Positions 9,250 to 37,049 of a stretch of DNA of 37,049 nt are shown here, piece by piece. The translations under genes were made by a program, and so were the position numbers. This DNA comes from an uncultured beta proteobacterium (GTDB lineage: Bacteria > Pseudomonadota > Gammaproteobacteria > Burkholderiales > Burkholderiaceae_C). Location of the stretch: the NCBI GenBank assembly GCA_903914615.1, contig CAIWPS010000147.1, positions 1 to 37,049 on the forward strand, read 5' to 3'. The notes beneath the pieces were generated by a model, which saw only the letters and a list, made by a program, of their open reading frames with translations, had not been told where the DNA came from and searched no databases. Each line of letters opens with the position of its first letter. Position 1 is the first letter of the stretch.

Positions 9250-9617
9250 GGCTTGCCTCGCGTGAGGGATTCAACGGCGGTTTGCAGGTTGCCGATAGGC
9301 CCGAGAAACTTGCCGAGCATGCGGTGCTGTTCACGAAGCGCCTCGACGATCGGGGTCTGTGCGGCCACGGTCTGGGCCATGAGGTCCGTCAGCCGATCGA
9401 GCCTGCGCGCCTGCTTGTCGACCTTGCCGTGCAGCGCTTCCACGCGGATCGGCAGCGGCGCCAGGTAGGTGTTTTGCGCGTGCACGTTGAGCTCGACGCC
9501 CCCGTACCGCTCCGCGTTGGCCTTCTCGAGCTCCTCCAGGCGCGCCGCGAGCTCGCGCAGTGCGCCCGGTACCGAGCGGGGCCGCTTCGCCGGCGCGCGT
9601 GGCGTTCGCGGCTTCAC
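9246..9617 (-). CDS. Hypothetical coiled-coil protein
   Basis: 123 aa; predicted helical; ATGA overlaps both sides. Confidence 0.65.
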   Translation of the reverse strand: MKPRTPRAPAKRPRSVPGALRELAARLEELEKANAERYGGVELNVHAQNTYLAPLPIRVEALHGKVDKQARRLDRLTDLMAQTVAAQTPIVEALREQHRMLGKFLGPIGNLQTAVESLTRGKP

Positions 9618-10277: not shown

Positions 10278-10610
10278 TTATCCACAGGGCTCTAGATTCT
10301 TAGGATTTGTTCTTAGTTCTAGTTCTGGTCCGCATTTTGTCCGCAATGTGTCCGCATTGCGTCCGCACCGCGTCCGCTCGCGTGGTACGCTTGCGGTCGG
10401 CGTCGACTGCCCGACGCTTCGCTAAGGTGCCGTTATGATTGTGGAAATTCGGGAGCGTTACCTGGCCGTCGACGACTTGAAGCCACTCCGGCGGGAGGAG
10501 GTCGCAGATGCCCTTAATGCCGGTGAATTGGTCTACGTCGTCCGGAGTGAACGGAGTACGGTCGAAATCATCCACAGCCTGCTCACAGGTTATCCACAGG
10601 ATACTCACAG
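10278..10610. promoter_or_regulatory. Putative replication origin region
   Basis: TTATCCACA at 10278 and 10590, near-match TCATCCACA at 10568, five GTCCGC units at exact 11-bp spacing (10328-10377). Confidence 0.65.
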
Positions 10611-10791
10611 CCCCGATGGCCATGGCGACAAACGCATTATGGTCAATCGGGGTTTGAGTTCCGCCGGTGACGCGGCCCCGATCGCGGGCGGCTAACTCGC
10701 GCGCGATTCGGTGGATCCGTGCATCCAGGTAAAGGCTCTTTTCGAGCTTGACCCAGGGGCCCTGGTGGGCTGGCCGTGGGGGCCTCGTCAT
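10300..10791 (-). CDS. Putative phage replication-initiation protein
   Basis: 163 aa; GPWVKLEKSLYLDARIHRIARELA...LPNFHNHNGTLAKRRAVDADRKR resembles phage replication proteins with 'NFxxHNGxxAKxRA' followed by a low-complexity basic tail; iterons and DnaA boxes lie in the gene. Confidence 0.6.
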   Translation of the reverse strand: MTRPPRPAHQGPWVKLEKSLYLDARIHRIARELAARDRGRVTGGTQTPIDHNAFVAMAIGAVSILWITCEQAVDDFDRTPFTPDDVDQFTGIKGICDLLPPEWLQVVDGQVTLPNFHNHNGTLAKRRAVDADRKRTTRADAVRTQCGHIADKMRTRTRTKNKS

Positions 10792-10988
10792 GGCGCCGGC
10801 GGCGTGCGCACGCGCCGATAGGACTCGTAGGCCTCGAGCCCGAGGTAGGCCAGCAGCCGGGGTCCTGGCAGCTTGCGGCCATTGAGGACCTTGCCGACAA
10901 AGGCGCCAGAGACGCCCGCCTCACGGCCGACGTCCCGCAGGGTGCGGCCGCGACAGCGGGCGGCCAGTTCGCGTTGTGCTAGGTTCAT
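10788..10988 (-). CDS. HTH (Cro/XRE-like) transcriptional regulator
   Basis: 66 aa; TLRDVGREAGVSGAFVGKVLNGRKLPGPRLLAYLGLE. Confidence 0.72.
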   Translation of the reverse strand: MNLAQRELAARCRGRTLRDVGREAGVSGAFVGKVLNGRKLPGPRLLAYLGLEAYESYRRVRTPPAP

Positions 10989-13023: not shown

Positions 13024-13340
13024 CACTCAACCACAACCTGAGCGTCGCGACGCTCCTCGCGACCGCGCACGCCCTCGTGCGCCGCGGATTCGAGACGGAC
13101 CTCCTGCGGCAAGGGCCGCTGGCCGCGAAGGAACGCCCGCGGTCGCGGGGCTTCCGGTTCTCGCAGGTGCGCTCGCCGTATTTTTTGTCGCCGACGGTCA
13201 CGACGTATGACCGGCGCGGCCCGGACACGCTCATGGCCGCGCAGGACAAGCGCGTCCGCAAGGCCCTCAAGAGGGTGCGCGACCAGAACCGATGCGCGCA
13301 CGGGCAGCTGGCGCGGCAACCGCTGCGGGGGCTGCTGTGA
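13020..13340 (+). CDS. Hypothetical basic protein
   Basis: MTLNHNLSVATLLATAHALVRRGFETDLLRQGPL...; ATGA/TGATG junctions. Confidence 0.62.
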   Translation: MTLNHNLSVATLLATAHALVRRGFETDLLRQGPLAAKERPRSRGFRFSQVRSPYFLSPTVTTYDRRGPDTLMAAQDKRVRKALKRVRDQNRCAHGQLARQPLRGLL

Positions 13341-13597
13341 TGGGCACCGTATCGGTCAACGTCCAAGCGCAGGTGTTCGTCGACGAGGAGGTCGACGTCG
13401 AGCTCCGCGAGCTCGTCGAGGACCTTACCGACGACCAGGCGCAGGAACTCCGCGAGCTTCTCGAGCGCAGGCTTGCCCTGGCCGGCAATGGCCGCGGCGA
13501 CTTGCTCGAGGCGGCGTACCTCGCCATGCGCGGCCGCGCGGACTGCCCGGACGTGCTGCGCGAGTATTTTTGGAAGGTGCTGGGGAGGGTGTTATGA
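13340..13597 (+). CDS. Hypothetical acidic protein
   Basis: MGTVSVNVQAQVFVDEEVDVELRELVEDLTDDQAQELRELLERR...; TGATG start coupling. Confidence 0.65.
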   Translation: MGTVSVNVQAQVFVDEEVDVELRELVEDLTDDQAQELRELLERRLALAGNGRGDLLEAAYLAMRGRADCPDVLREYFWKVLGRVL

Positions 13598-13941
13598 CGG
13601 ATCAGTTGCAGGAGCCCGCCACGTTCGTGTGGAAGCCCATGGGCATGATGCTCGAGCGCGTGCATGGCACGTTGGTTGACGAGGCGGCGCCGCGGTTCGT
13701 GCTGCTGCTGGACTACCGGCGCGACATCCGCCAGGCGCGGCCGAAGTCGCCCGCCGCCGATGCCGTGTCGTTCGTGGCCATGCGCGAGTGCGAGCGCCTG
13801 CAAGGGTTTCCCGACGACTACACGGCGATCCCGTATCGCGGCAAGCCGGCCAGCGACGGCCCGCGCTACAAGGCGCTGGGGAACTCGATGGCCGTTCCGG
13901 TCATGCGCTGGATCGGCGAGCGGATAGGTCAGGTCAAGTGA
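13594..13941 (+). CDS. Stand-alone C5 cytosine methyltransferase C-terminal fragment (motif IX/X-like)
   Basis: 115 aa; VAMRECERLQGFPDDYTAIPYRGKPASDGPRYKALGNSMAVPVMRWIGERI; no PCQ/ENV catalytic motifs. Confidence 0.75.
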   Translation: MTDQLQEPATFVWKPMGMMLERVHGTLVDEAAPRFVLLLDYRRDIRQARPKSPAADAVSFVAMRECERLQGFPDDYTAIPYRGKPASDGPRYKALGNSMAVPVMRWIGERIGQVK

Positions 13942-16738: not shown

Positions 16739-18772
16739 TTACATTTGGGCCCAGGCGCCCGTGTTGCCATTGAAAGACAGCTTGTACGCACTGCCCGCGG
16801 CGAGCAGCTGGTTTCCGCCGCTGGTCCATTTCACCGCACCGCCGCTGGTGCCATAGCTCATGGTCGTGAAGCCGTCGCCGTAGAGGGTGAGCTCCATGCC
16901 CTGCACGCCACCGGTGATGCCGGCGACGGTCGTCGCGCCGACGTTCGCGGCGTACAGCTGATTGACCCATCCCCCCTGGCCCAAGGTCGTGCCTTGCAGG
17001 TAGACGGTGCAGTTGGCGGTCGACGTGAAGGTCTTGGAGCCGGGCACCGCCGGCGACGGCGATGCGTTTTGGTCCCAGCGCTGCAACGGCGTGGCGGTCG
17101 CCACCTGCACGCCATTGCTCACTACCCAGGGGATGGTGTTGTAGCAGAGCGGGTGATTGTCGATGATGGCGCGGATGTTGGCCGTGCCGAAGAAGTTATA
17201 GAACGCGGTCGTGCCCACGGTCGTGGCCCACGAGTTGCGCGCCGCGTAGAACGCCTGCGTCTGCTCGAGAAACAGCGCCTGGCTGACCACGGTGGCGCCG
17301 GACAGGTAGCCCGAGCAGCCCTGCACGTTGAGCCCGTTGACGTAGACGGTGCCCGTCAGGCCCTGGCCGCAGGCAATGTAGGCGGTGATGGTCGTGCCCG
17401 AGGAAATGGTGTCCTCGAAGTCCGAGTTGATGATGTCCACCTGCGAGCAGCCGACGGTGGCCGCCTTGGAGCTCACCTGCACGCCGATGCCGCCGGACTC
17501 AAAGGCGCAGTTCTGGATGAGCGTGTTGTTGGCGCGGTCGACGTTGAGGCTGGCCGGACAGTTGGCGTTGGCCCCCTGGATCCAGACGTGGTCAAAAGTG
17601 GTGTTCGTCGACAGCCCGCTCGCGAAGTTGGTGGCATCGAGCTCCACCTGGCCATAAGCGGCCGAGCCGCAGGCGGTGATGTAGGAGTCGGACACCCGCG
17701 TGACGAGGGTGTTGTTGAGGTAGATGCCGCGGCCGGGCACGCCACGCACGACGACGTCGCGGATGATCCCCATTTCGGTCTGGTTGAGGAGGATGCCATT
17801 CACGATGCCGGCGGTCTGGCCGCCATTGATCTGGAGGTCGCGGATGGTGCCCGCCACCTTCCAGGTACCGGCGACGCCAGCGCTGTTCACGTTGATGACG
17901 TTCGTCACGCCCGTGGTCGGCGCGATGATGGTCTGTGCCTTGCCGTCACCCACGAGGTTGACCGCGAACGGGCCTGAGCCACCCTGGAGCCACTGCGAGC
18001 CAAAGGGGACGATGATGTCCGCGTTGGTCGCGTAGGTGCCGGCGGGCATGCGGAACTCGCCGACGTTGCCGCGGCCCGCGGCATTGAGGCCTGCGTTGAG
18101 GGCCGCGGTGGTCGCGGCCGCGTTGACGCCCAGGTTGTTCGCGCCATAGCGCAGCGCGTTACCGTAGGGCCAGTAGGGCAGCGCGACCGTGGCGCCGGCG
18201 GCGGTCTCGGCCGCGGACGTGGGATAGAGAAAGCCACCGATCGAATTCGCGGACAGCGAGCCCGAGGGCAGCGTCTGCGCGAGCGACACGTTGCCATTGC
18301 CATCGAACGTGAGCACGGTGTTCTCGCGCGCCAGCGCCGACGGAAGATTGAAGTTGAGCGGGTTGGTGTCCGCGTCCGGCGCCTTGACGCACCGATTCAT
18401 CTGGTCCTGGAGGGCCAGGACCATTTGCACGGCGCGGTCGAGCGCGGTCTGGATGGCCGCCGTCGGGAAGGCCTGGCCCTGCACCAGCTGCGTCGGCTGG
18501 GTCTGTGCGGGCCTGAGGATGACTTGCAGCGTATCGCCGGCGGGCCAGGCGGTGCCGGCGAGCGTGGTCATGGTCCAGGCCGGCGGGCTCAGGGAGCCGG
18601 AGCTCACGAGCGAATAATCGCTATTGAGCGTGAACGTGGTCTCCAGGCCTGCGGCGGTCGTGTGCGTGACGACAAAATCGACGTTGTAGTATGCCTGGAT
18701 CGGCACCGGAAAGACGGTGGTGACGCCATCGCAGTTGAAGGCGACGCGGGTCGTGGCGGATGCGATGGTCAT
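16739..18772 (-). CDS. Tailspike/tail fiber (podophage N-terminal adaptor plus beta-helix)
   Basis: 677 aa; N-terminal FNCDGVTTVFPVPIQAYYNVDFVVTHT...FPTAAIQTALDRAVQMVLALQDQ; followed by repetitive pectate-lyase-like sequence. Confidence 0.87.
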   Translation of the reverse strand: MTIASATTRVAFNCDGVTTVFPVPIQAYYNVDFVVTHTTAAGLETTFTLNSDYSLVSSGSLSPPAWTMTTLAGTAWPAGDTLQVILRPAQTQPTQLVQGQAFPTAAIQTALDRAVQMVLALQDQMNRCVKAPDADTNPLNFNLPSALARENTVLTFDGNGNVSLAQTLPSGSLSANSIGGFLYPTSAAETAAGATVALPYWPYGNALRYGANNLGVNAAATTAALNAGLNAAGRGNVGEFRMPAGTYATNADIIVPFGSQWLQGGSGPFAVNLVGDGKAQTIIAPTTGVTNVINVNSAGVAGTWKVAGTIRDLQINGGQTAGIVNGILLNQTEMGIIRDVVVRGVPGRGIYLNNTLVTRVSDSYITACGSAAYGQVELDATNFASGLSTNTTFDHVWIQGANANCPASLNVDRANNTLIQNCAFESGGIGVQVSSKAATVGCSQVDIINSDFEDTISSGTTITAYIACGQGLTGTVYVNGLNVQGCSGYLSGATVVSQALFLEQTQAFYAARNSWATTVGTTAFYNFFGTANIRAIIDNHPLCYNTIPWVVSNGVQVATATPLQRWDQNASPSPAVPGSKTFTSTANCTVYLQGTTLGQGGWVNQLYAANVGATTVAGITGGVQGMELTLYGDGFTTMSYGTSGGAVKWTSGGNQLLAAGSAYKLSFNGNTGAWAQM

Positions 18773-21700
18773 TAATCTTCCCTCCGCGGCGCGTCAGGGG
18801 GCAATCCCATGGCGTCGCCGAGTTTTTGCTCCAGGTGGTTCACGCCACGCCGCAGGTACCATATTTGATTTCCGGGCAGCATGCGACGGATACGGTGGAT
18901 GTCGCCCCGGCTGAAATGCGCGTCCTGCGGGTTGTGAGTGATTTGGCCGCGGATCTTTGCGGGGATTCTTAAATCCCACGCGTCGACAGCGGTGCCGGCG
19001 ACCGGGCCGCCGAGCGTCTCCCAGGTCTGGCGATCGCCCCAGCGGCTGAAGTTGCCCATGCCGAACTGCCACAGCACGGGGTAGAAGAATTCCCCTACCC
19101 AACCGAGCAGGTTGGATTTATCCAGGACCTCCAGCGCGAAGCGGTCCGGGTGCTTCTCGATCGGCTGCCCGGAGGCCAGCTGCTTGAGCACGTAGGTGGC
19201 GGTACCGGCGCCGATCAGGGTGGCCAGTGCGGAGGCGCTGCGCAGGTCGCCGCGCGCGACACCTTGGGCCAGGGGGATGACGAGCTTGCGGATGGCGACG
19301 GCGCCAAAGGTCTTGAACTGGAATATGCACTTGCCGACTTCCGAGCTCGTCCACAGCGGGGTATCGCCCACGCCCGGTGAGAGCGTGGAGCTCTCGCCGG
19401 CGCGCATCGTCAGATTGTCCACCGCCTGCGCGGCCGCGTGGTCCGTCCACTTGTAGGTGCTGCCCATGCGCAGGCCATTGACGGTGCGGCCGTAGCTCTG
19501 GAACTGGTCCGCGATGCGATGGAGCATGCCCTGGTCGATGCCGTTGTTGTTGAGGCGCGTGCGGTCACTGACGGACAGCGCTTCACCGGCGCGCGCGCGG
19601 GCGGCCAGGTCGAGTATCTCGTCATGCGCGGCCGCGGCACTCCAGGCCTTGGTGCTCGCAATCCATGGCGTCTCGAGGGTGGCGATGGTGAACGCGCGCG
19701 TACCGCGGTTCAGTGCTTTCTGGAAGGCATAGGCGGACTCGACGCCATACTCGCCCAGCTGCGCGGCGGTGGAGTTGTGCACCATGTCCATCGCCGTGCC
19801 CATGCGCTGCATTTCCCGGCGGGTGAGCTTGAGCGCTTCCATCGAGGAGGCGAGCTTCATGGCCGTGGCGAACGTGCGGGTGAGCCCATTGCGCAGGACC
19901 GCGTTGCCGAGGTCTGGGATATGCGAGGCGGTGGCGGTGCCGAGGAAGCGGAACGCGTTAACGCTGCGGATGCCGCGTGCGATGCGCTGGAACCATCCCG
20001 TGGGATCGGACGGCGTGCCGAAGATGCCGTAGAGCCGGTCGCGCAGGGCCTTGAGGTCGCGGACGTCCGTGTTTTCGCGGCGGTTGAGGGCATTGGCGGT
20101 GGTCTGGTCGCCCTGCGCGAGCGCGCGCTGCTTCAGAAGCGCGTACTCGTCCTGGACCCGCTGGAAGGCATCGATCATGTCCTTGTCGCCAAAGGCGCGG
20201 GTGATTTCCACTTGCGGCGCGAGCGACTTGATGTACGCGTGGCTCAGGACGTCGATGTCATTGGTCAGGTACTTCTCGAGCAGCACGTCGGGCATCAGGA
20301 GCTCACGCGCCTTGAGCCGCCCCGACGTGGGGGCCAGGTCCTTGAAGATTGACGGGTTGTGATCTAGGAACCCGAGCTCACTGCCGAGGATGTTGGCCGT
20401 TACGCGGTGCGCGACGTTGTCGGCCTCCGCGCGCTCAAGGCCCTGCTTCTCGAAGTGATCGGCCAGGATCTGGTGCCAGTTGACGCGGTCAGCGCGGATC
20501 GCGGCGCGGTCGTACTGGCGCATGAGGTAGGACTCGGCCGTCCCGCCGAGGAGCTCCTGCTGCTTAGGGAGCAGCCCGAGCTCCTCCGCCTCGGCCTTGA
20601 GCGGATCGAACGCGATCGAGCGCGTCGCGCGCGCGGCCTCCTGCACTTCCGGCACGACGTGGCGATCGCCGCGGCGCATGGCGGCGGACACTTCCTGATT
20701 GAACTGGTGACGGTCCAGGCGCACCGGCTCCGTGGGCCCGAGGTCGCGCAGCTTGTACTGGCGATACAAGTCATCGCGCGCGCGCCACGCTTCGTTCCAC
20801 TTGCCTTCCCAGGCCTTGAGCAGCGTCTCCACCGATTTCGGGGTCGGCACGCCATTCGGCCGCTCTTTGGTCGGGACGTTCATCTCGAGCATTTCGGGCA
20901 TTTCGGTCAGATGCACGAGCACGCGGCGCACCGCGAGCGACGGCGAGCGCAGGGTGCGCAGCGACGGGTAGAACCATCCCAGCGCCTTGCCGAGCGCGCG
21001 GCCACCGCGGGCCAGGCGCAGGTCCCCAAGGGTGTACTCGTTGGCGGCCTGGAACGCACCGACGGTGCTGCCCTCCGGCGCGGCGGTGGGAGTGCCGTGG
21101 TCCAGGTCGCGCAGGCGCTGCTCGAATTCCCCGCGCTCCTCGAGCGGGAGGCGGCCGAGCATGTCGACCAGGTCATTCTGGCGCACCGCCTGGCTGAACA
21201 GGTCCGACGGGTCGCCCGTCTCGGCCGACTCCTGGCCGCCGTTCCTCAGTCCGTCGCGGCGGCGGATCTCGTCGGCGAGGGCCTGGGTGCTGGTGGGCCG
21301 CTCTCCAAAGAGGTCTGTTTCAGCGCGAGCTCGCCCGCCGGACTCGGCCCCTCCTGTTTCGTCGGCTGTACGGGCTCCGGTGGCAGGTTCGTCCCCGCCG
21401 CCGCCTGCCTCGCGAGCAGGTCCTCCGGCGGCAGGCCCGTCGGTAAATCTCCCAGCCGGCTCCGATTCTTCTGGGCCACTTGCAGCAAGCTTTGCGTCCG
21501 TGTCGTGCGCATCGAGGGCCTCCTTTACGTGCCGCATGAAGGCGGTGTCATCGTTCTCGAACCGGCGCGCCAGCGTCTCGACGAGGCCCTCGTCGATCGA
21601 CGCCAGGCGCGACACCATGGCCACCTGCCAGACGTCGTTGGGATTCTCGGCCGATAGGTGCTCGACGCCCTCGAAGTCAGACGGGTGGGCCAGGAAGGGC

Positions 21701-24700
21701 TCCGAGCTCGTGCGCTGGTCTGCGACGCTGACCATGTAATCGAGCAGCATGCGCTGGCGTTCGCCGAGCCCGTCACCGCGCAGGGCCTTTTCCACGGCGT
21801 TCTGCACTTCCGGCACGGTGAAGCCGGACTCCGACTTCTCCGACCGGCGCGGCATGCCCGGCCACCAGTGCGAGTTGGGCAGCCACTTGGTGCGGCCGAC
21901 GATGACGTTGTAGTCGATATGGCTGGGGTCCTCGGTCTTGCGAATGATCGAGCCGCCGATTTCCTGCCATCCCCCTTGCTCGTAGGCCATCTGCCGCAGC
22001 GTCTCGCGCAGCACGTCGTCGCCAGCCAGGCGCCGCAGGCCCTCGTCGGGCGCGGCCGCGACGCGTGCGGCCCTGGCCGCGTCGATGTCCGCCTGGGTGG
22101 CGAGCATGCGGTCCATGACCTCACGCACCGCCTGCGGCGCACGGCCGAGCGCGGTGGTGTCCAGTCGCGTGAGGGCCTGGTAAATCTGCGTGAGCCACTT
22201 GCGGAACTGGTCGAAAACCGCTTGCAGGCGCGTACTGGGGGCCACGCCCTCGGCCGCGTAGCGCTCAAAGGCCTGCGCAAAGGCCTCGTGATAGCGGCGC
22301 TGCTCGTCCAGCGGCATTGCGTGCCAGGCATCGACGTCCTTGACGCGGAACCAATCCATGAGGGTCTGGACGTCCTGGCGGATCGACAGCGGGGCATCGG
22401 CGTAGGCGCCTATCTCGGTATACAGGTCCAGGAAGTGGTGCCCCGCCTCGTGCACGAACGTCGACAGGTCACGCGCGGCGGTGATCGACATGGTGTGTGT
22501 CGAGGGGTCATACGCGCCGCGGCCGCCGCCCTGGAACAGCGGCTGCCCGGCGAGCGCGGCGTCGCGCATCGCGGGCGGTATGTCCATCGAGTGCACGGTC
22601 ACGGCCGGCGGGGTTTCTGGCGGCGGCGTGGTCAGGTTCGCGGCGCGTCGCTCGAGGTCGCGGTAGTGCAGAGTCTCCTGGGGTGTCAGGTCGTCCTGGT
22701 AGAGTCGGCCCGCCTCGTAGATCGCCTCGAGCTCGCGGATGCGCTCACGGTCGCGCTCGTTGAGCTCCTCGAGGTTGTCAGTCGAATACAGGTGATTGAG
22801 CTCTGAGCTCTGCTCCGGGTTGAGCCCTGAGCGGCGCTCGTGCTCCTCAAGCGCGGCGCGCTCCTCCTCGGTCAGCGGCGTGTGCTCGAGCCGCTGGAGC
22901 AGGTCTCCGCGGCGAATCTGCTCCTCCGCGGTGAGGCTATGGCCCTCGATGGGTCCGTCCGCGTTGCGGCGCGCGTCGCGCTCGTTGAGGCGCTCGAGCT
23001 CTCCGCGCTCCTTCGGATTGAGCGGGGCGGTGTGATCGCCGATCTGTGCGCCATGCTGGCGCAGCCGCCGCTCGAGGTCGTCCAGGCGCGCGCCTTCCGC
23101 CACGTCAAAATTCCGCAGCGGATCCATGCTGTGAACGCGCAGCCGCGTGAGCTCGTGCTGCTCCGCTGGCGTGAGCCCGCGAGACTCGCCGAGCGCGCGG
23201 TCCAGGTGCTGGGTGTCGCGCATTTCGTTGCCGTCGGACGCGGCCACCCGCGCCTCGCGCTCGCTGCTGTAGACGCGGCCCGTGATGCCGCCATCGTCGA
23301 GCAGTTCCCACTGGTTCGGGCCAGTCTCGTGCACGGTGTAGACCGCCGGGCCGCCGTTCCCGTCCGGCTCCTGGCCATGTGGGACGACCTCGATGGCGGC
23401 GTCCGGGTGCAGCGCGCGGTAATGGTCGACGGTCGCGCGCAGGTTGGCGCGGTGCACGCCCTCCTCGGCGAGCTCGTTGCGCACGTGCACGTCAAAGTGC
23501 GTTTGAGAGTGCTCGCCACCGCGGCCATCGCCGCCGAGCTCCTTCTCCCCGACGGTGGCGCCATACTTCTTGCCGAGCTTCTTGGCGAACGCGGGCAGCA
23601 TCTTGTCGTAGAAGCCCTGCATGCCCGAGCCGCCGACGGTGAGGTCCTTGCCCGCGAGCTCGCCGCGCGGCTCGCCGCCGAGTACCTTCTGGGCCGCGTC
23701 CTGGCCAATGACTTCGGCCAGGGTCTTACCCTTCGCGTCGGCTGCCGATGAGTCTTTAATCGTGCCCTTGTTGATGTCGACGTCCGCGGTAAATACCGGG
23801 CGGCCCGCCTTGTGCGCGCTGACGACGACGGTGCTGTTGCGGAATAGATCGGTACCGATGTCCGCCGCCGGCGGAGCCCATCGGATGCTGTCGACGGCCT
23901 GGCGCAGTTCGTGGGTGTAGCGCTCCGCCTGGGTGGCGCCGCGCGTCCAGGTGATGCGCTCGAAGCCATTCTCCGCGGCGTGGCGGACCATGGCCTTGAA
24001 CGCGAGCTCCGGCCAGGACTTCTTGAACGGCGCATCCGGGAGCAGGTCGGTGGTGCCGCCACCCTGCACCTGCTCCTCGGCGGCAGCCCAGCGGCGTCGC
24101 TCGTTGAGCGCGCGGGCGATCGGCCCGCGGTGCTCCTCCGGGACGTTGTAATGCTGCCACCACAGCGGGTCCTTGAGGAATTCGTTGTACATGTCGCGCG
24201 CGTTGGGGAAGCCTGCCTTGTCGATCGCGTCGACGGAGGGCTTGGCTGCGTCGACGGCGTCGTTGTGGTTTTTCCTGATGAGGTCGAGCGCGGTGGCGCT
24301 AAAGCCGCGCGGGTTCTGGTACAGCCAATTTCGCTCGCGCTGGAGCGCACCGATGTCCTTGCCGGCTTTCTCGCGCTCCGTGATGAACTTGTAGGCCTCG
24401 CGGCGCTGCTCTGGCGTGCGCGCCTCGTCGTGCAGCGCTTCGTGGAGGTCCGTCTCCGGGGGATACCCGTGCTTGTCGAGCCACTCGCGCACGCGCCGGT
24501 CATACCCCTGGCCGAAGTACTTGTCATGCGCCTCGTCGATTTGGCGGTTGAGCTCCTGGATGCGCGCCTCGCGGCGGATCGGGTCGAGGATGTCGTAGCC
24601 GCTTTCGCGGCCCGCCTGGTGCCAATCGGACTGGATTTCCTCGATGTGGAGCTCGCGCTTGCCATCCGCGCCGATGCGCTCGTTGGTGCGCACGTGCGCC

Positions 24701-27681
24701 AGGATGTTTGGCTGGCTCCAGTGCCCGGAGTTATAGGCGCGGGGCTGGTTGGCCTTGGTGTCGGTGGGCTCGCCGTGCTTGGCGAGCTCCTCGTCACGCT
24801 CGCGCTCGAGCTCCCGGATGCGGTCCCGGCTGTCCATCATGGCGTCATGGTCGCGGATCGCCCCCTGGCGCCGGGACTCGGCGCGGATCTTCTCCTCGTA
24901 CTCGGCCGCGATGCGCCGGCGCGCGGCGTAGTCGACGCCCGGATCGAGCTTGCTGAGCTCGTGGTCCATGAGGTCCTGGTCGATGTCGCGCAGCTTTTTC
25001 GTCCCGGCGAGCTCGTCGCGCCACTGCTGGAGCTTCACCGGCTCGTACTTTTCGCCGTACTCGGCGACCGAGCGGCGGATCATGTTCTCGAGGGTCTGGA
25101 TTTGCGCGTGGTGCTTGTTCTCCTGCGACGCCCAATAGGCCTTGCGCTCATGCAGGACGTTCGTCGGCCGATCGAGCGTGAGGAGGTGCTCCTTGTTATT
25201 GGAGCCGCCGGGCAGGTTGTATTGGTCGTAACGGACCGACTCGGCCAGGTTGTCCAGGTCCATGACGATGTGCGCGGCATCGGCCGGCAGGTCGCCGAGG
25301 TCGCGCTCCTCGCCGGTCGCGCGGTCCGTGACCACGGGACTCTCGCCGGGATAGTCGCCGGGGGTGATGTCATAGCCCATGGCGCCCAGGCGGTCGACGA
25401 GCTCGCGCTCACGCGCGACGTCGTAGCCGTTGCGGATTTCCTTCACCGCTACCTGGTTGGCGCGCATGTGCTCAAGCAGCTGCTCACGCGTGACGGTGCC
25501 CGTGCGCGATTCGAGCCAGGGGCGCACGCCCATCCACTCGAGTTCCTCCTTGGTCACGCCCTTGGTCGTGAGGTTCTCCAGCGTCTTGAGCCACTGCTCC
25601 GGCGAGGCCTTGGTCATCGGCAGCGACTCGACGCCCCGGATGGCCGCCGAGTAGAACGGATCGGCCAGCGCTTGTGCCAGGCCACCGGGCAGCGCTTCGC
25701 CGGTGATGTGCAGCGGGGCCATGTCAAACAGCGCGTCGGGGGTGATCCCCAGCCGATCGGCGAGCGTGTGGTAGCCCTCGCCGATCAGCGCGGCGTAGGC
25801 CTGCGCTTCCTTTGGCGTATAGCGGTCGGTCGAGGCCAGCGCATCAAGCACGTGATGCTCGACGTTCGGCGCGCCGCTGACGGGCCGCCACCCGCTGCGG
25901 TGGCCGCCACCGCGGGTGGTGGGCAGCACCTGCTCGTGCTGGAACGGGATGTAGTAGGTCGGCCCGCCGGCGTGGCTCGCGTCGATGACCAGGCCATCAT
26001 GCCCGGCGGCGATTTGCTCGTTGCGCCAGGCGGTCGCCTCGGCGTTGCTCGCGAAGTTGGGGAGCTCGTCGTGGCGCAGTTCCAGCGGGTGCTCGATGTT
26101 GAGGTGATGCTCCGTGACGGGGCCCATGGCCGCCGCGTCAGCCGCCGTGCCCGTGAATACGGGCCCCAGCGCGGAGGTTGGCCGCCCGGTCTCGGCCGTC
26201 AGCCGGGCAGGCTCGAAGTCGCGCTTGCTGAGCCGCCGGCCGCCGCGATAGACGGGGAGAGGTTCGCCGCTCCGGCTGCCTGCTCCTTCAACGCCGCGTG
26301 CGTTGCGGCCAGCTGGTCCGCCAGGAACTGGCTCGCCGGATTCTCCTGGAGCAGCTGCTCCAGCGCCTTCGGTGGGTGATACGTCGGATCGTAGGCCCTG
26401 GAATTCGTGGCTAAGCTCATAGGGGGGCTCCGGGACGGGTTCGGGGTTATGTTCTGCGTGGAACCGCTCTAACTGCTCGCGGGCCTCGAGGGCCGCCTGG
26501 GCCCGTGCCTGGTCCTCGAGCGCGGCGGCGTGCTCTGTCTGGAGCCCGAGCCCGGCCCTGGTCTCCTCCCATAAGGCCCACAGCCGGCCCACGGCGCGCT
26601 CACGGAGCACGTGGGGCAGATCCTCGCCGTAGGTCGCCTCGAGCCGCTCACGCACGGACTCCGGCTGCTGGAGTCGCTCGACTTCCTGCGCAATGGCCGC
26701 CTCGCGCGCCTCCGGCGGGGGCTCCGCATGGGCATCCAGGGCCGCCTGGGCCGCCTGTAGCCGGTCCTGAGCCGCCTGGGGGTCTATGCCCTGCGCGGCG
26801 GCGTGGGCCTCGGCGGCGGCCTGCTGGAGCCGCTGGGAGTGCTCCGCGAGCCGCTGGCGCACGTCGGCGGCGATCCGTTCGGCGGTATCGCCCTCCGGCG
26901 CGACGTAGGTGGGTATGCGCTCCGCGAGGTCGCGCTTGAGGGTCTCCTGGATCCGCGCAATGTCGGCCGCGGTCTGGTGGGTATCCCCGCCATGGTGCAG
27001 GACACCGCCGAGGATGCCGGCGAGCAGGGTGCCCTCGCCGAGATTCAGGGCATTTTCGTACAGGCCCTGCGGCGCGTTGGGGTCAATCTGGCGCATGGCG
27101 ATCTGCTGCGCCGCGCTGGTGGCGCCGCCGGTGATCGCAAAGCGCACGGCGTTGGCCAGGCGGGTCGGGGCTGCGGGGGTGAGCATGGCCGCTGCGCCGA
27201 TGACATCCAGATTGCCGGCTGCAAAGCCGATGAGGCCCTGGTGCTTGGAGGCCATGAGGGCCTGCGCGTCGCGGTCCTGGGACTGGAGCTCCTCATAGCG
27301 CTGCTGGATTTCCTCCGGGGTGAACAGCCCGCCGTATTTGGACGCGCGCCATTCCTCCCCCGGTGGGATGGCGACGTTGGGGTCCGCCTTGCGGGGATCC
27401 GAGCCCGCGCCGAGATACCGCCAGTTGATGTCATCCGGTGGGCCCTGGTGCGAGCCGGCGATGACGAGGTCATCGAACGCGCGGCCCTGCACGGTGTTGC
27501 GCAGCGCGGCGGCGGTGATGTCCAGCGCCGAGTATTTCGGCGAGTTGGCGCCCGTGCCGCCATTGGCGTCGGGGTCGGGCAGGTTGCCGAGCGGGCGGTT
27601 GTAGACCGGCCCCTGCGGCATGAAGTTGGTCTGATCCGCAGCCGGATCCGGCGCGCCAGCGGTGGGGTTGGTCAGCGGCAT
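18772..27681 (-). CDS. Giant polyvalent internal virion/ejection protein (ART-like, zincin-like and other polyvalent-protein domains)
   Basis: 2969-aa ORF; YRGGRRLSKRDFEP...AAGHDGLVIDAS...YYIPFQHEQV (ART-like), LHIEEIQSDWHQAGRESGYD...WTRGATQAERY, STFVHEAGHHFLDLY (HExxH), helical C-terminus; downstream of gp13/14/15-like genes. Confidence 0.88.
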   Translation of the reverse strand: MPLTNPTAGAPDPAADQTNFMPQGPVYNRPLGNLPDPDANGGTGANSPKYSALDITAAALRNTVQGRAFDDLVIAGSHQGPPDDINWRYLGAGSDPRKADPNVAIPPGEEWRASKYGGLFTPEEIQQRYEELQSQDRDAQALMASKHQGLIGFAAGNLDVIGAAAMLTPAAPTRLANAVRFAITGGATSAAQQIAMRQIDPNAPQGLYENALNLGEGTLLAGILGGVLHHGGDTHQTAADIARIQETLKRDLAERIPTYVAPEGDTAERIAADVRQRLAEHSQRLQQAAAEAHAAAQGIDPQAAQDRLQAAQAALDAHAEPPPEAREAAIAQEVERLQQPESVRERLEATYGEDLPHVLRERAVGRLWALWEETRAGLGLQTEHAAALEDQARAQAALEAREQLERFHAEHNPEPVPEPPYELSHEFQGLRSDVSPTEGAGAAAPGESGEPVPGGPAGRNARGVEGAGSRSGEPLPVYRGGRRLSKRDFEPARLTAETGRPTSALGPVFTGTAADAAAMGPVTEHHLNIEHPLELRHDELPNFASNAEATAWRNEQIAAGHDGLVIDASHAGGPTYYIPFQHEQVLPTTRGGGHRSGWRPVSGAPNVEHHVLDALASTDRYTPKEAQAYAALIGEGYHTLADRLGITPDALFDMAPLHITGEALPGGLAQALADPFYSAAIRGVESLPMTKASPEQWLKTLENLTTKGVTKEELEWMGVRPWLESRTGTVTREQLLEHMRANQVAVKEIRNGYDVARERELVDRLGAMGYDITPGDYPGESPVVTDRATGEERDLGDLPADAAHIVMDLDNLAESVRYDQYNLPGGSNNKEHLLTLDRPTNVLHERKAYWASQENKHHAQIQTLENMIRRSVAEYGEKYEPVKLQQWRDELAGTKKLRDIDQDLMDHELSKLDPGVDYAARRRIAAEYEEKIRAESRRQGAIRDHDAMMDSRDRIRELERERDEELAKHGEPTDTKANQPRAYNSGHWSQPNILAHVRTNERIGADGKRELHIEEIQSDWHQAGRESGYDILDPIRREARIQELNRQIDEAHDKYFGQGYDRRVREWLDKHGYPPETDLHEALHDEARTPEQRREAYKFITEREKAGKDIGALQRERNWLYQNPRGFSATALDLIRKNHNDAVDAAKPSVDAIDKAGFPNARDMYNEFLKDPLWWQHYNVPEEHRGPIARALNERRRWAAAEEQVQGGGTTDLLPDAPFKKSWPELAFKAMVRHAAENGFERITWTRGATQAERYTHELRQAVDSIRWAPPAADIGTDLFRNSTVVVSAHKAGRPVFTADVDINKGTIKDSSAADAKGKTLAEVIGQDAAQKVLGGEPRGELAGKDLTVGGSGMQGFYDKMLPAFAKKLGKKYGATVGEKELGGDGRGGEHSQTHFDVHVRNELAEEGVHRANLRATVDHYRALHPDAAIEVVPHGQEPDGNGGPAVYTVHETGPNQWELLDDGGITGRVYSSEREARVAASDGNEMRDTQHLDRALGESRGLTPAEQHELTRLRVHSMDPLRNFDVAEGARLDDLERRLRQHGAQIGDHTAPLNPKERGELERLNERDARRNADGPIEGHSLTAEEQIRRGDLLQRLEHTPLTEEERAALEEHERRSGLNPEQSSELNHLYSTDNLEELNERDRERIRELEAIYEAGRLYQDDLTPQETLHYRDLERRAANLTTPPPETPPAVTVHSMDIPPAMRDAALAGQPLFQGGGRGAYDPSTHTMSITAARDLSTFVHEAGHHFLDLYTEIGAYADAPLSIRQDVQTLMDWFRVKDVDAWHAMPLDEQRRYHEAFAQAFERYAAEGVAPSTRLQAVFDQFRKWLTQIYQALTRLDTTALGRAPQAVREVMDRMLATQADIDAARAARVAAAPDEGLRRLAGDDVLRETLRQMAYEQGGWQEIGGSIIRKTEDPSHIDYNVIVGRTKWLPNSHWWPGMPRRSEKSESGFTVPEVQNAVEKALRGDGLGERQRMLLDYMVSVADQRTSSEPFLAHPSDFEGVEHLSAENPNDVWQVAMVSRLASIDEGLVETLARRFENDDTAFMRHVKEALDAHDTDAKLAASGPEESEPAGRFTDGPAAGGPAREAGGGGDEPATGARTADETGGAESGGRARAETDLFGERPTSTQALADEIRRRDGLRNGGQESAETGDPSDLFSQAVRQNDLVDMLGRLPLEERGEFEQRLRDLDHGTPTAAPEGSTVGAFQAANEYTLGDLRLARGGRALGKALGWFYPSLRTLRSPSLAVRRVLVHLTEMPEMLEMNVPTKERPNGVPTPKSVETLLKAWEGKWNEAWRARDDLYRQYKLRDLGPTEPVRLDRHQFNQEVSAAMRRGDRHVVPEVQEAARATRSIAFDPLKAEAEELGLLPKQQELLGGTAESYLMRQYDRAAIRADRVNWHQILADHFEKQGLERAEADNVAHRVTANILGSELGFLDHNPSIFKDLAPTSGRLKARELLMPDVLLEKYLTNDIDVLSHAYIKSLAPQVEITRAFGDKDMIDAFQRVQDEYALLKQRALAQGDQTTANALNRRENTDVRDLKALRDRLYGIFGTPSDPTGWFQRIARGIRSVNAFRFLGTATASHIPDLGNAVLRNGLTRTFATAMKLASSMEALKLTRREMQRMGTAMDMVHNSTAAQLGEYGVESAYAFQKALNRGTRAFTIATLETPWIASTKAWSAAAAHDEILDLAARARAGEALSVSDRTRLNNNGIDQGMLHRIADQFQSYGRTVNGLRMGSTYKWTDHAAAQAVDNLTMRAGESSTLSPGVGDTPLWTSSEVGKCIFQFKTFGAVAIRKLVIPLAQGVARGDLRSASALATLIGAGTATYVLKQLASGQPIEKHPDRFALEVLDKSNLLGWVGEFFYPVLWQFGMGNFSRWGDRQTWETLGGPVAGTAVDAWDLRIPAKIRGQITHNPQDAHFSRGDIHRIRRMLPGNQIWYLRRGVNHLEQKLGDAMGLPPDAPRRED

Positions 27682-36867: not shown

Positions 36868-37049
36868 TTAGTTGGGCATGCCACCGACGATGCGGTCGCG
36901 CAGGGCATCGACCTCGCCCTGCATGTTCCGCCACTGGTGATCGTTGATTTTCCCGGCCGCGCGATCGGCCGTGATCTGGTCCAGGCGCGACTGAGCTTCG
37001 GAGGCGCCACCTTGGAAGCGGGTGCCATGGCCCGCCTCGCCGGCAAAGC
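36868..37049 (-). CDS. Putative scaffolding protein, C-terminal part (continues into 1-922 in the circular genome)
   Basis: Reads ...NMQGEVDALRDRIVGGMPN* with TAA at 36868-36870; 922 + 41 nt = 963 nt, in frame across the circle junction. Confidence 0.8.
   Translation of the reverse strand, partial: FAGEAGHGTRFQGGASEAQSRLDQITADRAAGKINDHQWRNMQGEVDALRDRIVGGMPN
36909..37049. repeat. Terminal direct repeat, identical to 1-141
   Basis: Exact 141-bp match to the window start. Confidence 0.97.

Follow-up and report, generated by a model that had tools for sequence, protein, structure and literature searches.

A putative phage replication origin overlapping the gene of its epsilon15-related initiator: iterons, an AT-rich tract and DnaA boxes

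Do five short repeats near the 3' end of a small gene mark the place where a phage starts its replication? The repeats lie in the window (the whole stretch of 37,049 nucleotides that was analysed), within an ORF of 163 amino acids (10300..10791, minus strand). We have high confidence that this region is an origin and moderate confidence that DnaA is used there. As a whole, the reading that a small temperate phage has its replication origin at 10278-10598, where it overlaps the phage's own initiator gene and works through iterons and DnaA, is very probable on the sequence evidence. The original prediction had placed GTCCGC at 10328, 10339, 10350, 10361 and 10372, and all five positions were re-found. 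On the minus strand, which is the gene strand, they form an array of five GCGGAC hexamers at 11-bp steps (10328..10377), at gene positions +415, +426, +437, +448 and +459. As claimed, the hexamer is read in all three codon phases of the ORF (0, 2, 1, 0, 2). Nowhere else in the window does a hexamer recur at least four times in a row at a constant step of 8-22 bp, and of 2000 synonymous-codon shuffles of the gene, 2 produced a run of five. Because the step is 11 bp, the five sites are predicted to lie on one face of the DNA.

Two perfect DnaA boxes, TTATCCACA, stand on opposite sides of the array: an outer box at 10278..10286 and an inner box in the gene at 10590..10598, both on the plus strand. 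Both had been predicted, and they are the only two in the window, against 0.04 expected from dinucleotide shuffles. A one-mismatch box, TCATCCACA (10568..10576, plus strand), lies 22 bp from the inner box, and the 22-bp tandem repeat described there was confirmed at 84% over 19 nt. An AT-rich tract (10287..10327, 39% G+C), the proposed unwinding element, separates the array from the outer box. It contains the lowest-GC 40-mer of the 37-kb window (0.35 G+C, starting at 10290-10291), a point overlooked earlier. Sequence comparison revealed that the 13 bp TTATCCACAGGGC at the outer box match R1 of E. coli oriC and that the AT-rich tract is on the same side of the box in both; a DnaA box beside an AT-rich tract in this orientation is the arrangement of an oriC-like unwinding unit. 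The elements had been described as lying inside the gene, which is right for the array and the inner box; the box at 10278 and part of the tract are outside the ORF, which ends at 10300; the rest of the tract falls within the 3' end of the gene. The predicted inflection of GC skew near 10.3 kb was not clearly found, as the raw cumulative skew showed no reversal there and the detrended peak was at 9384. GC skew is a weak test of an origin here because gene orientation confounds it.

The protein encoded by the gene matches phage replication initiators, in agreement with the role first assigned to it. It is a short member of phrog_2509 (E 7.7e-18, profile positions 31-135 of 277), a family annotated as 'replication initiation protein', and its N-domain fits the profile. 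A Pfam search with the window protein gave no family match at E up to 1, and with it as a single query, scans of viral contigs, genomes and phage records turned up no relatives. The way into the family was a paralogue of the same assembly, C511, which is about 50% identical to the window protein; tblastn from C511 led to epsilon15, phiPSA1, Xanthomonas phages and a Rac-like phage, and further relatives were found in IMG/VR. Judged by sequence, the relationship of the window gene to the 'replication initiation protein' of epsilon15 is distant. Directly upstream, a gene for a small helix-turn-helix protein of 66 amino acids (10788..10988, minus strand; PF13560, E 1e-5, just below the cut-off) is likely a regulator in the same transcription unit. 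A DnaT domain (PF17948) was found in 14 of the 28 family members scanned, and so is not universal, and the family profile matched solved DnaT structures at 4.7e-16. In a domain search the DnaT-like C-terminus was absent from the window protein, which ends short of the DnaT region, as do C511, L010 and L215. An AlphaFold2 model made from 28 sequences (mean pLDDT 83) has a helix at residues 122-160 after a mixed helical and beta core, with low confidence at the end coded by the array. Foldseek with the N-domain matched no solved structure; the best viral matches were uncharacterised proteins and a fragment of 'Primosomal protein 1'.

Are the repeats a property of the family? For each gene, the hexamer with the most copies having a neighbour 10-13 bp away was compared with synonymous-codon shuffles. 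For 86 of the 93 distinct genes tested in the family, no more than 1 shuffle in 100 reached the observed repeat count. The 93 are mostly epsilon15 relatives and not independent of each other. None of 38 control genes of the same phages passed the same test. The same types of site were also found in divergent members in a wider set of 162 distinct genes. Nearly all of about 160 distinct relatives carry GCGGAC or GCGTNAC at steps of about 11 bp in the gene, usually in two clusters and with sites on both strands; cores in other members are CGTTAC, CGTGAC, CGTCAC or CATTAC. In epsilon15, GCGGAC is located at +55 and +66 (reverse) and +79 and +101 (forward) in the first cluster, and at +334 and +345 (reverse) and +358 and +369 (forward) in the second. 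The first cluster codes the loop before a G-A-x-x-x-L-W helix, and the linker that follows HNGxxAKxRA is coded by the second. The last site of several members leads into CAGACC(A/T) and then an AT-rich tract, and 41 epsilon15-type genes have a perfect DnaA box in the same orientation after the second cluster. The window shows the family arrangement, an HNGxxAKxRA helix followed by phased GCGGAC or GCGTNAC sites in the gene. The first cluster of most relatives is absent from the window and the second alone is present; because two clusters were not found, the window was filed as a short variant of phrog_2509.

The nearest relatives of the window are C511, L010 and L215, and these four form a short branch that bears on what the repeats are conserved for. 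The frame of C511 ends at a TGA within the array, and those of L010 and L215 end at a TAA belonging to a GTAAC site. In all three, sites after the stop codon, the AT-rich tract and the outer DnaA box are kept outside the initiator frame. The GCGGAC site of the window has no stop trinucleotide, and its frame continues through the array into the AT-rich tract. Since these three proteins end within the array while the repeats beyond the stop, the tract and the outer box are all retained, the constraint acts on the DNA. The original prediction had named relatives with the protein and without the repeats as the case against it; the relatives retain the repeats, including those that now lie outside the reading frame, which bears out conservation at the DNA level. 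The DnaA boxes are also kept. The inner box, CTGTGGATAA in the gene, encodes L-W-I, located identically in the proteins of the four members, with ATA as the Ile codon in each; ATA makes up 9 of 215 Ile codons in the long ORFs of the window. The window, C511 and L010 have the outer box 41-44 bp beyond the array; in L215 the box deviates at one base. The short branch, without a DnaT-like C-terminus, probably relies on host DnaA.

C511 (L008, L009) itself carries a related but different initiator and putative origin (C511:2646-3047, minus strand), and its initiator adjoins a DUF1064-like gene, as in the window. Thus, two related phages in one bin differ in their iterons, GCGGAC versus CGTGAC.

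Which part of the protein would read the sites? The candidate is a basic helix, AKRRAVDADRKRTTR (codons 122-138; 10378..10428, minus strand), whose codons end directly before the array, which starts at codon 139. Window residues common to the epsilon15 group and not to C511 or L010 are R126, D130, D132, K134 and R135 in this helix after HNG, and an alanine in the stretch that is iteron-coded in epsilon15; the window and epsilon15 have GCGGAC and 'RRAxDADRKR' in common. At the key helix position, GCGGAC genes of the 162-gene set have R-K, and GCGTNAC genes mostly have R-V, R-Q or R-T. Outside the helix, the window protein sides with relatives whose site is GCGTNAC. A tree of the body domain with the helix left out, which has few columns and a long branch for the window, places the window with C511 and L010 (98/92); on this tree two separate changes to GCGGAC are required. 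The pairing of helix and iteron also fits two relatives that come from bacterial genomes: L244 has GCGGAC and the helix KRKQ, and L248 has GGAC at 11-bp steps and the helix QRKG. The helix is proposed as the site reader because its residues track the iteron type; as the co-variation comprises two to three independent events, confidence in this is moderate. Recent recombination from epsilon15 as the source of helix and iterons is unlikely because the codons of the shared residues differ between the window and epsilon15; an old exchange with epsilon15 is possible.

The contig has an exact direct terminal repeat of 141 bp (1-141 and 36909-37049). It therefore probably closes as a circle of 36,908 bp, which makes it likely that this assembly contains the whole phage genome and not an integrated prophage. 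It encodes an integrase, both terminase genes, a PF12236 head-tail connector and a phage capsid protein. As had been claimed, no polymerase or helicase gene was recognised on this contig closing on itself, nor was a helicase loader, among 32 other ORFs scanned with Pfam, PHROGs or both; outside these 32 is a single ORF of 2,969 amino acids (18772-27681, minus strand) in a 37-kb phage. A methylase-like stretch at 13207-13941 (plus strand) also matches one PHROG labelled DNA primase. Just about 50 of its C-terminal residues match a C5-cytosine DNA methylase, so the gene may be broken or its start or frame misassigned. In the host assembly, rated 98% complete, HMM searches found neither DnaT nor DciA, and a 16S search gave no match either.

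Taken together, the repeats of the relatives, the phrog_2509 match and the lack of a recognised helicase, loader or polymerase support the original idea of an in-gene origin served by the 163-aa initiator and host DnaA. We infer that the initiator binds the five GCGGAC sites, probably via residues 122-138, and that its nucleoprotein complex would form beside the AT-rich tract. Host DnaA would bind the box at 10278, on the far side of the tract, and the in-gene box at 10590. The initiator complex and DnaA may then jointly open the tract, where the host helicase and replisome would be loaded. Points that speak against this reading are the missing first cluster of the window, the GC skew, the many relatives whose arrays come without a perfect DnaA box, and the small number of independent events behind the co-variation.

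Several other explanations have to be weighed against this reading. The repeats might be a by-product of coding a low-complexity basic tail, with no role at the DNA level: the model has low confidence for the array-coded tail, and the codon composition of the gene alone yields a five-run at the shuffle frequency given above. However, all three frames are in use, sites of the relatives occur on both strands, and sites lie beyond the stop codon in C511, L010 and L215. These out-of-frame sites largely refute the by-product explanation, which we regard as scarcely credible. The array could instead be an operator, through which the initiator or the upstream helix-turn-helix protein controls transcription while replication starts elsewhere. 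The helix-turn-helix gene is directly upstream of the initiator gene, and initiators of iteron replicons frequently autoregulate. The array, however, sits at the gene's 3' end, with the AT-richest tract and an oriC-like DnaA box next to it, and the two clusters of the relatives sit within the coding region, not at a promoter, which makes an operator improbable.

An origin in the gene that works without DnaA is a different matter, as here the initiator alone would open the tract and the boxes would be incidental or driven by coding. Perfect DnaA boxes are lacking in many relatives whose arrays are good, and the residues coded by the inner box are conserved ones. Against this are the number of perfect boxes compared with expectation, the position of the outer box outside the initiator frame, at a near-constant distance past the array and in R1 orientation in the window, C511 and L010, and the rare ATA codon of the inner box in all four short-branch members. 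We consider an origin without DnaA unlikely, though not negligible, and keep the origin with initiator and DnaA as the preferred reading.

How does the proposed origin compare with known systems? The closest are epsilon15 (Salmonella phage, NC_004775), phiPSA1 and Klebsiella BUCT711, whose N-domain is homologous to that of the window. Epsilon15 and its relatives share with the window in-gene GCGGAC at 11-bp steps and the basic helix RRAxDADRKR, and in epsilon15 an AT-rich tract and then a DnaA box in the same orientation follow. In contrast, epsilon15-type genes have two clusters with sites in both orientations, whereas in the window five direct repeats form a single cluster and the gene contains an additional DnaA box; their proteins are longer and often carry a DnaT-like C-terminus, and the window protein has neither feature. 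In iteron plasmid origins, iterons stand on one side of an AT-rich tract with one or more DnaA boxes nearby (reviewed in PMC4980987), as in the window, although there the iterons are usually outside the rep gene and the Rep family is different. The established analogue is the origin of lambda and Stx phages, located mid-gene in O with iterons and an AT-rich tract (PMC7466680). The parallel drawn with lambda holds for iterons in the initiator gene beside an AT-rich tract, which in the window overlaps the 3' end. It does not extend to homology: initiator homology to lambda O was not detectable (no Pfam family at E up to 1), the sites are six-base sites at 11-bp steps, and DnaA boxes flank the tract of the window. 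The best reading is thus analogy, an origin that would work like that of lambda with an initiator of another family (epsilon15, phrog_2509).

A 'Rac ydaU' record, MN652886, was considered as a guide to oriJ of K-12 and dropped because the ydaU of K-12 is another protein (DUF1376) and has no such clusters. K-12 ydaU (Rac prophage, L249 4620-5477) has GTTCAAAC at +394 and +427, and reversed at +450. It is possibly another in-gene origin and a candidate place for oriJ, which carries no annotation in the ydaU stretch of NC_000913.

No origin was found described for the epsilon15/YdaU-like family in the literature, and this absence is weak evidence because the search covered open-access papers only. 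The origin proposed here would give precise coordinates for a widespread temperate phage family that includes epsilon15. We see an even chance that the family carries one module, in which 11-bp-stepped hexamers and the basic helix coded directly upstream change together, in a large initiator family without a Pfam DNA-binding model, and that one branch dropped the DnaT-like domain, with stop codons supplied by iterons and host DnaA boxes used instead. The helix and iteron pairs are a natural series from which a recognition rule could be read off, and the short branch would show an origin exchanging a phage helicase-recruiting domain for host DnaA.
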